A stretch of DNA of 32,235 bases, from positions 1 through 32,235 of the IMG/VR virus record IMGVR_UViG_3300042564_002073. The stretch is one strand, 5' to 3'. Origin of the DNA: a virus. The translations under genes were made by a program, and so were the position numbers. Positions 1,521-27,350 of the stretch are shown here, in pieces (the stretch's first letter is position 1; each line of letters begins with the position of its first letter). Under the pieces are notes generated by a model. It saw only the letters and a list, made by a program, of their open reading frames with translations. It was not told the DNA's origin and ran no database searches.

Positions 1521-2938
1521 TTATTGAAAAATTTTAAATCTATGCGCGTTCTGATATAAAAATCCGTCTTTATATCCCATTAATTTACAAAATAAAACGG
1601 CTTCGTCTTTTGTTTTCAGCTGGTGCAATACATAAAACGCCTTTAATACTCCCGATTTTACCATTTTAACCTTTTCGTAAATATCGGAATCATTCATTAA
1701 TTGCGCGGTTGTTAATAGTTTTAATTCAGCTATTTCGTCAGCGTCGAAAACCTCCTTTTCGGGCAAAGCGTAACCGCAATAGTCGCAACCTTTCGCCTTA
1801 TTTGAAATAATCGCACCGCAATTTTTGCAGTCAGTAACAGGCGAAGCGCCAATCGTGTTTCTTTTTTCAGCTTTTTTTAAGTCCCAAAATCTTCGCGTTT
1901 CCCAAAAATCAAACCTTTGAACGTTATTTCCGAAGTCCAATAAATAAAAACTTTGTTTATCTTTTGCTGTTCGTGATCCACGCCCGACCATTTGCAAAAA
2001 TAAAGGTAGCGAAGTCGTCGCCCTGTATAAAATTACAGCCTCGATCGTTGGTTCGTCGTATCCAGCATTTAAAATTCCGCAGTTACAAATAATAGCCGTT
2101 TGGGTGTTTTTAAACCACTCCAGCGCTTCGGTACGTTCTTTGTCAGGCGTTGCGCCGTCGATATGCCTTGCCTCTATTCCTGAAGCTATAAATTCGTCCC
2201 TTACTTGTTTAGAACTTTCAACGTTTGACGCAAAAATAATAGTTTTTTTGCCAGCAACTAAACGTAAATAATTTTCAACGACGCCCTTATAAGTTTTATT
2301 TTCTTCAAAATATTTTTTAGTATCGTAATCGTCCCCGACTTTTTTCAATCCTTTTACTTCCATAGGTACGCCATACGTCAACGCATTACATAAAAAACCC
2401 TGTTTTATTAAGTCAGGCGTATCGACTTCCTGAATTAAATCAGTATAAAATTCAGTTAAAGAGGGCTGTTTTCCTGTTCTTAACGGCGTTGCAGTTGCAC
2501 CAATTACAAACGTTTTAGGGTTTATATAGTCGAATATTTTGTTAAAAGTCGTTAAATGTGCTTCGTCAATTACGATCATTGTACGTTCAGATAGGAATAA
2601 TTCGTAGTCAACTGAACGTCTCGCAATTGTTTCGATCATTGCAACGTGTAAATTTTTACTTAAATCGGGAATTGATCCAGCATCTATTTTTTCAACCTCC
2701 AGCCCAAAATTTAAAAACGTTTTTGTTGACTGTTTAAACAATTCGCTTCGGTGCGTAAGTATCAAAACCTTTCCGCCTTTTTTGACGTGTTCAGATACCA
2801 TAAAAGAAAACATTATCGTTTTTCCTGTCAGCCCGCGCCCGTTGGAGCGCACATAACAAGGCGTTTATTCCCTTGTTTTATACTGTCCCTCAGGGCGCGG
2901 ATAATTTCTTGTTGATATTCTCGTAAAATTACATTCAT
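1521..2938 (-). CDS. SF2 DEAD/DEAH-box helicase, frame interrupted in Walker A
   Basis: Translation from ATG 2938, which overlaps the previous stop as ATGA, gives 36 residues with the helicase entry sequence LREYQQ and then APTGAG followed by TGA (2828-2830). The remainder is open in another frame from GTG 2852 to 1521 (443 codons). It holds GKT directly after the break, DEAH (motif II), GATATP (III), QMVGRGSR (VI) and a C-terminal zinc ribbon (CKNCG ... CDYCG). Removing 8 bases, or a ribosome moving from the GGC codon to the next GGA, restores APTGAGKT exactly. All other motifs are intact, so the gene is either recently broken, recoded, or mis-sequenced. It should unwind DNA for replication or repair, with the adjacent nuclease. 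Confidence 0.85.
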
Positions 2939-3234
2939 TTTCTTAGTTTTAATCGTTTAGATAATAGTTCGTTTTCCAACTCCAGCCTATAAATTAAAAG
3001 CTCCATTTGTCGAACTTTGCTATTCACAAATAAAAGCCTTTGTAAAGTTGTTTCGACTGACTTTTGACGCTCAGAATAATAATCTAAACCCTCCTTTTCC
3101 TGAATATCAATTAAGGTTTTTTCAGTTCTTAAAATTAACTCGTCTAAGAAAAATTGCGTCTTTTTATATTCCAACCCTAAAACGTGGTTTTGATCCAACC
3201 CGTATTTTTTAAATAAATCTTTGATATTTTCCAT
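2935..3234 (-). CDS. Coiled-coil protein of unknown function, 99 residues
   Basis: Almost the whole protein is predicted helical and rich in Leu, Glu and Lys, with heptad-like spacing from about residue 30 to the end. No enzymatic motif is visible. It lies between the SF3 and SF2 helicase genes, with a 2-base gap upstream and an ATGA overlap downstream, so it belongs to the replication operon. An accessory or oligomerisation partner of one of the helicases is possible but unproven. Confidence 0.75.
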   Translation of the reverse strand: MENIKDLFKKYGLDQNHVLGLEYKKTQFFLDELILRTEKTLIDIQEKEGLDYYSERQKSVETTLQRLLFVNSKVRQMELLIYRLELENELLSKRLKLRK

Positions 3235-23867: not shown

Positions 23868-25103
23868 TTAAGATGCCAAAGTTACTAAAGATGCACTAAT
23901 TGAATTAACTTTTTTGAATCCTGTTTGGTCAGCAGTACGTACCAATAAATTCAAACGTTTTCTTGCTTTTAATGTCATCATATCGTTAGACCAGTCCGAA
24001 CCGTCATAACCAACTCCGACAAACATTCCAGCTTCCTCGTAGATTTTAGCGAAACGGCTGTCCCCAACGATACAAACGTTAGCTGTTAACGCGTTACATT
24101 CAATAATACGAATTCCGTTTACTGTAAATACTCCATTTGCATTTAATGCGAAAGGCGCTGTAACGTATTGTTTATTAGCGTCTTTTTTCAATAACATTTT
24201 GTTAATGTCAGCGATATTCATTAGAGCGAAATCGGGGTTGTATTTAGATCCTCCAGTAGCAGTAATTGTACGTTTAACGTCAACTAATAAATCGTAAATA
24301 GAAGCGTCAGAAATACCTTGCGCCGTAGCCGTGTAAGCTCCAGCCTGAGCTAACATTCCTTTAATGTTTGGCGAAGTACCGTTAGCGCTGATCAAATCTG
24401 TATCGATTTTAACATCGACGTTTGTCGCTAAGAAGTTGCGAACTTCCTGAACTAACATTTGATCATCGTAAGCAAATTCCTCAGACATTGGAACTGAATC
24501 CCCTACTTTTTGTAAGTTCAACGTGTAAGTAGCCCATTTTGCCGTAGACTCAGGGAAAGCAGTACCCTCAGCAATTGCAGTCGCTGAACGAACAGTTGTA
24601 GCCTCGTCCCAGTCAATGTAACGAACAGTTCCGTTCATATTTTGAGGAACAGAAACTTTCGGGAACAAATCGTAAACAGTTAATTTACGCGTTGCAAGTT
24701 GCCCGATGCCCGCTAAGTCCATAGCCATTCCGTTATTAGCAACTGAAGCACGGTTTGTGTCAGCTTTAACAACAAATTCGAACGCTGATCCTGAACCTTT
24801 TTGACGTGTAGCCATATCGATTTTAGATCTGTTTTCTTCAACAGCTTTTAACAAAGAATCCGTACTTTGTCCTTTCTCAGCGATTTCTGAATTAGCTTTT
24901 ACTTTCGCACCTAACTCGTTGATCGCATTTTCTAATTTAGTAACAGCTTCAATCGACGCTTTACTTTCTACAACTTCGCTAATTGCTTTGTTGTTTAATA
25001 AATTGAATTCCGCGTTCAATTCAGCCATTTCCTGAACTGTTTTAGTTGCGAATTCTTCGTTTGTAATTCCTTTTGAAGTAAGGAATTCGTTAAAATTCTT
25101 CAT
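23868..25103 (-). CDS. Major capsid protein, HK97 fold
   Basis: The start is ATG 25103 (MKNFNEFLTSKGITNEEF), giving 411 residues; an in-frame upstream extension runs through the protease gene in another reading and is not credible. Residues 1-100 form a helical delta/scaffold-like domain, followed by a basic region (RQKGSGSAFEFV) where the protease is expected to cut. Then come the HK97-type core with VPMSEEFAYDD, DLLVDVKRTI and a C-terminal segment ending RTADQTGFKK. It builds the icosahedral shell. It follows the protease gene by 4 bases. Confidence 0.93.
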   Translation of the reverse strand: MKNFNEFLTSKGITNEEFATKTVQEMAELNAEFNLLNNKAISEVVESKASIEAVTKLENAINELGAKVKANSEIAEKGQSTDSLLKAVEENRSKIDMATRQKGSGSAFEFVVKADTNRASVANNGMAMDLAGIGQLATRKLTVYDLFPKVSVPQNMNGTVRYIDWDEATTVRSATAIAEGTAFPESTAKWATYTLNLQKVGDSVPMSEEFAYDDQMLVQEVRNFLATNVDVKIDTDLISANGTSPNIKGMLAQAGAYTATAQGISDASIYDLLVDVKRTITATGGSKYNPDFALMNIADINKMLLKKDANKQYVTAPFALNANGVFTVNGIRIIECNALTANVCIVGDSRFAKIYEEAGMFVGVGYDGSDWSNDMMTLKARKRLNLLVRTADQTGFKKVNSISASLVTLAS

Positions 25104-25107
25104 TTTT

Positions 25108-25953
25108 TTAGTTTTTAAGAAGATTAATAAAAAATTGTTTTTGTGCCTCGTCGGGCGGTGTTTGTGTTTCCTGAGTGTCGTTAGACGGCTCGTTATTTGA
25201 AGTGTCCTCGACGGCTTCAATATTTTCAGTTTTATTTTCAACTTCGATTTCAAGTGTTGGCGTTGCAAAATTAGATCCTTTTACAACAGCCGAACCCTCG
25301 ATTACTTTTGCCTCAGTAACAGCCCAAAAATAACCTTTCTCGTCGGCTACTTCTTTATTTGCTACAATCGGATAGTATTTATCCCAGTTTGATTTTTCAC
25401 TTGAATAAGTAGGCTCGTTTGAATCAATACAAAGGAACATTTTAACGTAGCGCATTCCGACGCTATGATTTAAAACGTAACCTTTACGGTATTGGTTAAA
25501 CATAAATTCGTTGCGATCCTTTTTAATTTGTGTTTCAAAGATCAGCGCTTGCGTTTCTCCAGCATATTTAAAGCCTAATTTATTCCACGCTATATTTTCA
25601 ACGTATGCCTTTAAATTATCGTTTACAGAATCAGCGATAACCATATCGAATTCCATTTCGTGTTCCTGTAATAAAAAGAACGTACCGATTTCCTTTAATG
25701 ATTTATTCCAAATATTAGGAACGTGGCAATCTAAATGCGAATCGATTAAATTTGTTGTATTAATTACTAATTTAGCGTTCAATACGTTAATGTCCTCAGC
25801 GCTTAGATCCGTAACGGCTTTGTTGGTATTTTCTTCAGCTTCATTTAATGAAACATTCAAAACAACGTCAGCGTGTTTAACTTCGTTTTTTTTTCTTGAA
25901 ATAATTAATTCCTTATTTGCGAAAACGTGTTCAATTTCTTGTTCTTTTGTCAT
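25108..25953 (-). CDS. Prohead maturation protease, HK97 family
   Basis: A 281-residue serine protease of the HK97/herpes maturation type. The family hallmarks are H73 in DSHLDCH, the LNHSVGMRYVK segment with probable nucleophile S164, and the late FWAVTEAKVIEGSAV segment, in the place of the usual E-x-S/A-x-V strand. The C-terminal 45 residues (Glu/Thr/Gln-rich) are disordered and probably self-cleaved. It removes the delta domain of the capsid protein during head expansion. The ATG overlaps the 30-residue gene stop. Confidence 0.85.
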   Translation of the reverse strand: MTKEQEIEHVFANKELIISRKKNEVKHADVVLNVSLNEAEENTNKAVTDLSAEDINVLNAKLVINTTNLIDSHLDCHVPNIWNKSLKEIGTFFLLQEHEMEFDMVIADSVNDNLKAYVENIAWNKLGFKYAGETQALIFETQIKKDRNEFMFNQYRKGYVLNHSVGMRYVKMFLCIDSNEPTYSSEKSNWDKYYPIVANKEVADEKGYFWAVTEAKVIEGSAVVKGSNFATPTLEIEVENKTENIEAVEDTSNNEPSNDTQETQTPPDEAQKQFFINLLKN

Positions 25954-26106: not shown

Positions 26107-26129
26107 TTGTAAAATTAAATTTTTTGTAT

Positions 26130-27350
26130 ATGAAAATAAGTATTCCAGACTTTTTTAACGCCTTTCTCGGCGGTCGTTTATCCTACTCAGGAACGAAAAA
26201 TTTGTCTTATATGTCGCAAGTCTTAACAGGATCAGCGCAATTTTTAAGCCCTGACAATTGGGACGCCTATAATATTTACTTGACAACGCCCCAACTTTAC
26301 GCAGTTATTCAGCGACGTGGTTACCTTTTGGCTTCGGGGCAATGGAAACACTACAAAACCGTAGGCGGTAAAGCTACAATCGTAGAAAATAGCCCTTTCG
26401 TTCGTTTATTGGAAAATCCTAATATTTTTATGAACGGTAACGATTTAATTCGTCAATGGAATGAAAATAAATGTATTTACGGAAATAATTACGAATTTGT
26501 AAATAGATCGGCGTCGATGTTAATGCCTCAGCAGTTGACAAATTTACCTCCAGCGCAAATCGAAATAAATACAACAGGGAAAATTTACCGTCAAAATGAT
26601 ATTTCTGAAGTAATTAAAAATTATAAATTAGAACGAGGCGACAGTTACGAAATATTCGAAACAAACGAAATAAATCACACGCGCGTTGTTAATGGTAAAA
26701 ATCCAATCAAAGGGGAATCGCCAATGATCCCTATTTATATGCCGATTTCTAATATTCGCGCTTCGTACGAATTCCGTAACGTAATAATGAATAAAAAAGG
26801 TGCGTTAGGTATTTTATCAAATAATTCAAAAGATAGTCAGGGAGCAATACCTTTGACTCCAGCCGAACGCGAGCGTTTAGACAAAGAATATAATCGTCTG
26901 TTTGGAATCCAAAAGGAAAAAAGTCAAGTTATTATGACAAACACGGCGTTAACGTGGCAAGCTATGACTTTTCCCACTAAGGATTTAATGTTATTCGAGG
27001 AAGTAAACGCCGATTTTAATTCGATTATTGATCAATACGGTTTAAATGATAATTTATTTACACGCGACAAAGGCGCAACCTACGAAAATTTAGCGGAGGG
27101 AATGAAACAGGCTTATCAATCGACTATAATTCCCGAAGCTGAGGAACTGGCTATGAATAGATCGCAATTATTTGGGCTTATTGAACGTGGCGAATGGCTC
27201 GAACTTGACTATTCACATATCCCAGCGCTTCAGGAAAATTTAAAAGAGAAAGCCGAAGTACTCGAGAAAAAAGCAAATGCCTTTAATACTTTGTTACAAA
27301 CAGGGCAATATTCAACAAACGAATTAAAAGAAATTATCAATTTACAATAA
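26130..27350 (+). CDS. Portal protein
   Basis: A 406-residue portal of the HK97-type family, the only plus-strand gene in the window. I take ATG 26130 (MKISIPDFF) over a TTG at 26124. Recognisable segments are LYAVIQRRGYLLASGQW, FVRLLENPN, IRQWNENKCIYGNNYEF (the typical early-portal helix pattern), GALGILSNN and DFNSIIDQYGLNDNLFTRD near the end. It forms the dodecameric ring at one capsid vertex through which DNA enters and leaves. In gene order it lies between terminase and protease as expected, but reversed. It has its own promoter candidate and terminator. Confidence 0.95.
   Translation: MKISIPDFFNAFLGGRLSYSGTKNLSYMSQVLTGSAQFLSPDNWDAYNIYLTTPQLYAVIQRRGYLLASGQWKHYKTVGGKATIVENSPFVRLLENPNIFMNGNDLIRQWNENKCIYGNNYEFVNRSASMLMPQQLTNLPPAQIEINTTGKIYRQNDISEVIKNYKLERGDSYEIFETNEINHTRVVNGKNPIKGESPMIPIYMPISNIRASYEFRNVIMNKKGALGILSNNSKDSQGAIPLTPAERERLDKEYNRLFGIQKEKSQVIMTNTALTWQAMTFPTKDLMLFEEVNADFNSIIDQYGLNDNLFTRDKGATYENLAEGMKQAYQSTIIPEAEELAMNRSQLFGLIERGEWLELDYSHIPALQENLKEKAEVLEKKANAFNTLLQTGQYSTNELKEIINLQ

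Follow-up and report, generated by a model that had tools for sequence, protein, structure and literature searches.

Gene 60 of bacteriophage T4 has for decades been, to our knowledge, nearly the sole well-established case in a bacterial virus of ribosomes skipping part of an mRNA, and its mobA/gene 60 cassette is reportedly the subject of a 2011 PNAS paper. Published accounts place the gap in a replication gene beside mobA, an HNH endonuclease gene, with a stop codon directly after the glycine take-off codon and hairpins at the take-off site, and describe the gap as thought to protect against the endonuclease (PMC5009743, PMC3014915); mobA and gene 60 are treated elsewhere as a cassette of endonuclease plus gap (PMC2988022). 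Free-standing phage HNH homing endonucleases of the mobE and mobA type are said to lie between conserved genes, cut a neighbour, and spread by co-conversion (PMC2988022). Short hops have been engineered: in the synthetic stop-hops of Weiss et al. (1987), which include +5 and +6 hops, the peptidyl-tRNA re-pairs a few bases past a stop, between like codons (cited in PMC5009743). A stop in the A site, a hairpin, and a near-matching codon ahead are named as ingredients of gene 60 bypass and of the engineered stop-hops (PMC5009743, PMC3014915). A 2016 review describes shorter counterparts of gene 60 bypass as long presumed to exist elsewhere and knew of no natural in-frame stop hopping (PMC5009743).

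We analyzed a 32,235-base virus contig from IMG/VR (the window, here meaning that whole stretch of DNA), in which a helicase gene is broken inside its Walker A motif. Translation of the minus strand from the ATG at 2938 reads MNVILREYQQEIIRALRDSIKQGNKRLVMCAPTGAG and then meets TGA at 2830-2828. The codons GGA AAA ACG, of which the protein motif is GKT, begin at 2825, five bases past the first base of the stop, in a frame that is +2 (equivalently -1) relative to the N-terminal frame and open down to 1521. The ORF of 443 amino acids that begins in this second frame at a GTG (2852) matches the profiles Helicase_C (1.4e-15), ResIII (1.3e-13), and phrog_16 DNA helicase (5e-75); the broken gene encodes a phage SF2 helicase of the phrog_16 type. 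The features of the region, all on the minus strand, are as follows.

2935..3234, minus strand: upstream gene of 99 amino acids, overlapping the helicase ATG (ATGA), without an endonuclease domain (ORF and profile search)
2831..2938, minus strand: open frame of 36 codons for the helicase N-terminus, MNVILREYQQ...CAPTGAG, ending before the stop (sequence)
2855..2877, minus strand: second predicted hairpin, AACAAGG...CCTTGTT, upstream of the 7-bp hairpin (folding; similar pairs in L122 and L114)
2834..2851, minus strand: small predicted hairpin, 7 bp, loop CAAC, just 5' of the take-off codon (folding; z of -2.0 and -1.8 for the 60 bases upstream)
2831..2833, minus strand: GGC, proposed glycine take-off codon
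2828..2830, minus strand: TGA stop inside the Walker A motif (sequence)
2823..2830, minus strand: excess of 8 bases (stop, CA, and GGA) relative to an intact Walker A; TGACA forms the five bases between the two glycine codons, and L114 has the same GGC TGACA GG
2823..2825, minus strand: GGA, proposed glycine landing codon, followed by AAA ACG
1521..2825, minus strand: open frame for the C-terminal part of the SF2 helicase, running from GKT to the terminal stop (ORF and profile matches)

An earlier note, made from the letters alone, had read APTGAG followed by TGA, a second frame carrying GKT with the later helicase motifs intact, and the arrangement GGC, TGACA, GGA, AAA ACG; re-reading of the minus strand (2833-2823 and on) and the profile matches bear out each of these. 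Its two ways of repairing the motif also hold arithmetically: removal of the 8 bases restores APTGAGKT, and a -1 shift gives APTGAGLTGKT, in which GAGLTGKT still fits GxxxxGKT.

Elsewhere in the window, the portal gene (26124-27350) lies on the plus strand, with the terminase and most neighbouring genes on the minus strand. Near the likely capsid gene, long ORFs at 23868-25268 and 25108-25953 overlap in different frames, and the true start of that gene may be the internal MKNFNEFL.

The comparison with related phages for which the note had called revealed the same class of break, a stop plus two bases within Walker A with the +2 frame following in every case, in 15 other records, making 16 records in about 12 lineages. 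Queried with the window protein, IMG/VR yielded seven loci. The protein of L003 is 97% identical and has an intact CAPTGSGKT; those of L002 (98%) and L004 (90%) are broken at the same motif in another way, CCT ACG TAA TT GG., which reads APT, stop, and then GGGKT or GSGKT in the +2 frame. With 79 of the 80 loci from a further search (the duplicate L012 being dropped), these make a survey of 86 loci. Four of them (L002, L004, L030, and L033) have a frame break or stop in the matched helicase, in each case at Walker A, and breaks elsewhere in the helicase were found in none of the 86 (L005 and L007 stop short of Walker A). L030 and L033, whose proteins are about 47% identical to that of L003, read CCT ACG TAG CT GGT GCT GG. 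The sequence CAYVGAGKT in L076 is an in-frame variant.

IMG/VR was also scanned with patterns for an xPT Walker A ending in KT and inserts of fixed length. The five contigs matched by APT-stop-NN-GxGKT all encode helicases, L103 (with ACG TAATA) in addition to the four already named. PTGxG-stop-NN-KT matched six contigs, two of them helicases, namely L110 and the phage P12024L in its IMG copy, both with TAGGT. PTGxG-stop-NN-GKT, the form found in the window, gave seven helicases in 13 contigs (L114, L115, L118, L119, L122, L124, and L125). A control scan blind to stops (PTGxG, any 5 nt, GKT) returned 83 stretches, of which 80 were examined as loci; its seven helicases were the same seven, with a stop first in 7/7, as against 4/73 of the non-helicase loci; the break in the helicases is not a chance match. 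Helicase status was judged from the translated flanks, and matches to the TRR patterns without helicase flanks were set aside as chance. L117, L120, and L121 share one 28-base PTGxG-stop-GKT match in a non-helicase context, which we take as chance within one shared sequence. The exact window junction had no match in IMG/VR, a search of Genome_contigs gave relatives at 21-23% identity only, and the window-type pattern was present in 0 of 395 host genomes from the phylum of a Dyadobacter genome. Among phage records the DNA of L030 matched HNH fragments only.

Searches of isolate phages with three of the helicases gave two-piece matches in Persinger (L003 query, best 60 of 2579 phage records), Javan170 (L124 query, best 60 of 1455), and P12024L and P12024S (L114 query, best 40 of 712), and in no other phage among those best 60, 60, and 40. 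Javan170 (L206, a Streptococcus phage) proved to have an ordinary one-base shift at 701-859, downstream of an intact Walker A. The cultured Nonlabens (Persicivirga) phages P12024L and P12024S (L104 and L105, 2551-3013) read GGC GCA GGA TAG GT AAA ACC; their annotated helicase begins at an ATG after Walker A, and the N-terminal frame of 35 codons is unannotated. Both phages come with a named host and a complete genome record; phage growth is therefore compatible with the break. Intact helicases of Paenibacillus and Bacillus phages match the L124 helicase at up to 84% identity over 184 residues, a hint, short of proof, that members of the class also occur in phages of the Bacillota.

The sites are listed below as proposed take-off codon, the bases that follow it, and, for the glycine type, proposed landing codon.

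window: GGC TGACA GGA
L114: GGC TGACA GGC
L115: GGC TAAAA GGC
L118: GGA TGAAT GGA
L119: GGT TAAAT GGA
L122: GGA TAACT GGC
L124: GGT TAACC GGT
L125: GGC TAACC GGT
L110: GGT TA GGT
P12024L/S: GGA TA GGT
L002/L004: ACG TAATT
L030/L033: ACG TAGCT
L103: ACG TAATA

In all 16 records the stop directly follows the proposed take-off codon, as in the GGC TGA of the window. All three stop codons are used (TGACA, TAATT, TAGCT, TAATA, TAGGT, TAAAA, TGAAT, TAAAT, TAACT, and TAACC), and a consensus Walker A results at every site once the additional 5 or 8 bases are omitted. Take-off and landing codons are identical in L110, L114, L115, L118, and L124; both are glycine codons, though not the same one, in the window (GGC and GGA, alike in two of three bases), L119, L122, L125, and P12024. 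The three lineages of the Thr type have no matching landing codon, ACG facing ATT, GCT, or ATA at +5, and would be awkward for a hop because pairing of these triplets with the Thr anticodon would, in the first two positions, be by wobble at best. A Shine-Dalgarno-like AGGA before the break was considered as a general feature and set aside; it occurs in L002 and L030 and is absent from the window and P12024.

Folding of the sixty bases up to the break in the 16 broken genes, and of the two corresponding places in 78 intact genes, points to structure just before the stop. Thr-type breaks have a mean z of -4.88 (n=5), with 5/5 below -3, against -0.59 and 4/78 in intact genes; Gly-type breaks have a mean of -3.61 (n=11), with 6/11 below -3, against -0.02 and 2/78. 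The Mann-Whitney p values are 1.1e-4 (Thr type) and 1.1e-6 (Gly type), computed over rows that are not independent within lineages. Pairing ends 1-4 nt before the stop in 11 of 12 measured structures and 12 nt before it in L122, and folding gave no hairpins downstream of the break. In the VLPTGCG clade, all ten intact phage records encode nearly the same peptide without the hairpin (z +2.0 to -2.3), and 13 pairs are 100% formed in the four broken genes versus 53.8% in the ten intact ones; the changes are one-sided only, so that this stem is not a proof by covariation. A seven-pair outer stem of the Thr type survives two double changes, both at synonymous sites, a result that comes from three distinct rows only and is equalled by 51 of 500 shuffles. 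The hairpin of the window is weak (z -1.8 to -2.0), and those of P12024 and L122 are not significant. On these sequence comparisons, the codons before the stop appear to be chosen synonymously to form a hairpin in most broken genes.

The broken helicases also differ in their neighbours. With three HNH proteins as queries, and counting unbroken records with at least 150 nt upstream, an HNH gene was found within 20 nt upstream of the helicase start in 6/16 broken versus 0/87 unbroken records (Fisher 5.6e-6 by record). The genes belong to at least three types and occur in half of the lineages: a NUMOD4-HNH_3 endonuclease abuts the helicase in L030, L114, and L122, the C-terminal end of a relative of it in L103, a different HNH_3 protein in L119, and a third HNH type in L115 (phrog_3377, 2e-34, no Pfam match). 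Further HNH_3 matches lie elsewhere in the records of the broken L002, L033, and L118 and the unbroken L019, L026, and L029 (the last below cut-off). Phages whose helicase bodies share 27-46% identity have NUMOD4-type proteins that share 59-72%, so this endonuclease moves between phages. An adjacent endonuclease is absent from ten of the 16 broken records, the window included, and neither the window record nor P12024L or P12024S has an HNH_3, HNH, or GIY-YIG match anywhere. The window is a member of the class by its stop, position, frame, and glycine codons; it is an orphan without an endonuclease gene and, by its hairpin, among the weaker cases.

Divergence along the genes changes at the insert. 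L124 and L125 share a near-identical block that begins about 45 nt 5' of the ATG and ends 13 nt beyond the first base of the stop; the 34 codons of their N-terminal modules differ by a single change, versus a dS of 1.47 in the helicase body. The modules of L030 and L033 are identical, the sequence upstream being unrelated (bodies dS 0.42), and those of L002 and L004 are identical after the first codons (bodies dS 0.67). In these three pairs the ends of the homogenized tracts fall at the insert, as would be left by co-conversion with its right border at Walker A. For the window the sign is limited to an abrupt change of divergence at Walker A relative to L002 and L003: flanking DNA is 93-96% identical and the N-terminal 33-36 codons differ sharply. 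The N-terminal module of the window comes from another source than those of its close relatives. Unrelated small genes lie between the 99-aa-type gene and the helicase ATG in L002 (3654-3890) and L003 (3672-3904); the region in front of the helicase is a gene-swapping hotspot in these close relatives. The helicase bodies of broken genes are open for 365-502 amino acids, with dN/dS of 0.055-0.17 in four close pairs (0.168 for P12024L/S), a pattern indicative of purifying selection; in some pairs this may predate the break, because identical N-terminal modules mean that the break may be recent there. The break is common to P12024L and L122, whose inserts differ in length and whose N-terminal parts stand at dS 1.2.

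We propose, with a probability of roughly two in three, that the broken Walker A is a programmed recoding site that came from a homing-endonuclease cassette and is read by translational bypass of a 5-8 nt gap. In donor phages the HNH endonuclease encoded just upstream of the helicase would cut intact helicase genes at the Walker A DNA. The donor helicase would be protected from its own endonuclease because the 5- or 8-nt insert, starting with a stop codon, splits the target site, and the cassette of endonuclease, helicase N-terminus, and insert would spread by co-conversion with the insert as its right border. A full helicase would still be made because ribosomes stalled at the stop hop over the insert: the peptidyl-tRNA, aided by the hairpin just 5' of its codon, would leave that codon and re-pair 5 or 8 nt downstream, giving an exact PTGxGKT or APTGxGKT. 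In the window, take-off would be from GGC (2833-2831), over the TGA stop, to GGA (2825-2823), with AAA as the next codon. The earlier note's comparison with T4 gene 60, a hop from GGC to GGA, stands in part: recoding is favoured by the recurrence, the stop-first rule, the hairpins, and the endonuclease, and the match of the landing codon fails in the three Thr-type lineages.

A rival reading is a programmed -1 frameshift at the stop, by which the ribosome slips back one base and Walker A becomes two or three residues longer. The -1 frame stays open across all of the inserts, where it encodes L, I, M, or V and then T, N, K, I, or A, the products (PTGAG-LT-GKT in the window, APT-VI-GSGKT in L004) include the P-loop-like motif of the window already described, and the 5' hairpin could stimulate a slip as well. 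We nevertheless consider it unlikely: by direct reading, a slippery X XXY YYZ heptamer occurs in the codons before the stop at none of the sites, P-site re-pairing at -1 fails for ACG to TAC or AAC and for most GGN, and relatives would end up with SF2 P-loops differing by 2-3 residues in length, where a bypass produces the consensus in every one. Less likely again is that a short N-terminal peptide and an internally started C-terminal protein are made apart and cooperate, as with the phage Aeh1 gene nrdA, which mobE divides. Splitting of phage genes by homing endonucleases is documented (PMC2988022), and an ATG, GTG, or TTG precedes GKT in the second frame of most broken genes; but L114 has none between the preceding second-frame stop and GKT, which also speaks against reinitiation, and an internal start is not special to broken genes, because L003, a close relative with an intact gene, likewise has an ATG in the -1 frame at that place. 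The cut would, moreover, fall inside the nucleotide-binding loop, and separate synthesis needs neither a hairpin nor an obligatory stop.

An inactive helicase, a pseudogene that the phages can do without, left by an endonuclease cut with bad repair or by an escape mutation, is the least likely of these three readings. An end-joining scar at the cut site would also fall at Walker A, and the identical N-terminal modules show recent movement of some breaks. Against this, random scars would not all begin with a stop (7/7 helicases), the rest of the gene is open and under the low dN/dS given above, the break has been kept in P12024L and L122 despite their divergence, the codon choice before the stop forms hairpins, and the surveyed relatives have no breaks elsewhere in the gene. 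The earlier note had held simple mutation or assembly error to be likely. The window is a single metagenome record, but the recurrence of the break in about 12 lineages counts strongly against both and leads us to reject them; an error confined to this contig is hardly credible when the class includes two cultured isolates and L114 carries the identical GGC TGACA GG.

Returning to programmed bypass, we think it somewhat better than an even bet, judging from these sequences, that natural stop-hops of 5-8 nt are widespread in phages, probably those of at least two bacterial phyla, and arose repeatedly as patches conferring immunity to HNH homing endonucleases directed at Walker A DNA in SF2 helicase genes, most of them with a synonymous-codon hairpin before the stop. 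They would then form a broad natural class of minimal bypass elements, for which a hairpin on the 5' side, a stop, and an approximate codon match can be enough. Such a recurring short version, present in cultured phages, would offer many natural variants for learning what a ribosome needs to leave and rejoin its message, and would mean that selfish DNA is able to impose recoding on a helicase at its active site. Gene prediction overlooks or shortens helicases of this kind, as in P12024L and P12024S, where the annotation starts after Walker A.

Our search of the open-access literature found no earlier report of such breaks in helicases. The likeness to T4 gene 60 goes further than the earlier note had means to tell, since mobA/gene 60, too, is a cassette of endonuclease plus gap: the helicase breaks share with it an HNH neighbour (6/16) and a stop after a glycine take-off codon (Gly type), and most of them have a predicted 5' hairpin, modest in the window. 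Unlike the 50-nt gap of gene 60, which has its own stem-loop, the helicase gap is 5-8 nt with no stem-loop inside; gene 60 is known from one phage, whereas the helicase breaks occur in many lineages, in an SF2 helicase at Walker A; and the helicase landing codon is not always identical to the take-off codon. Nor is the helicase gene itself split by the endonuclease gene, and the N-terminal peptides of broken genes resemble those of intact homologues. The stop-hops of Weiss et al. were engineered test sequences, to which GGA-UA-GGU of P12024 corresponds as a +5 hop of the same form, but the helicase hop would occur in nature, in association with a mobile gene. The byp elements of yeast (Magnusiomyces) mitochondria are mitochondrial and numerous per genome, unlike the phage breaks, and the accounts available describe for them neither a stop-plus-two rule at one motif nor an adjacent HNH gene. 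Compared with free-standing endonucleases of the mobE and mobA type, the cassette proposed here would have the helicase Walker A as its target and a protected allele that breaks the reading frame.
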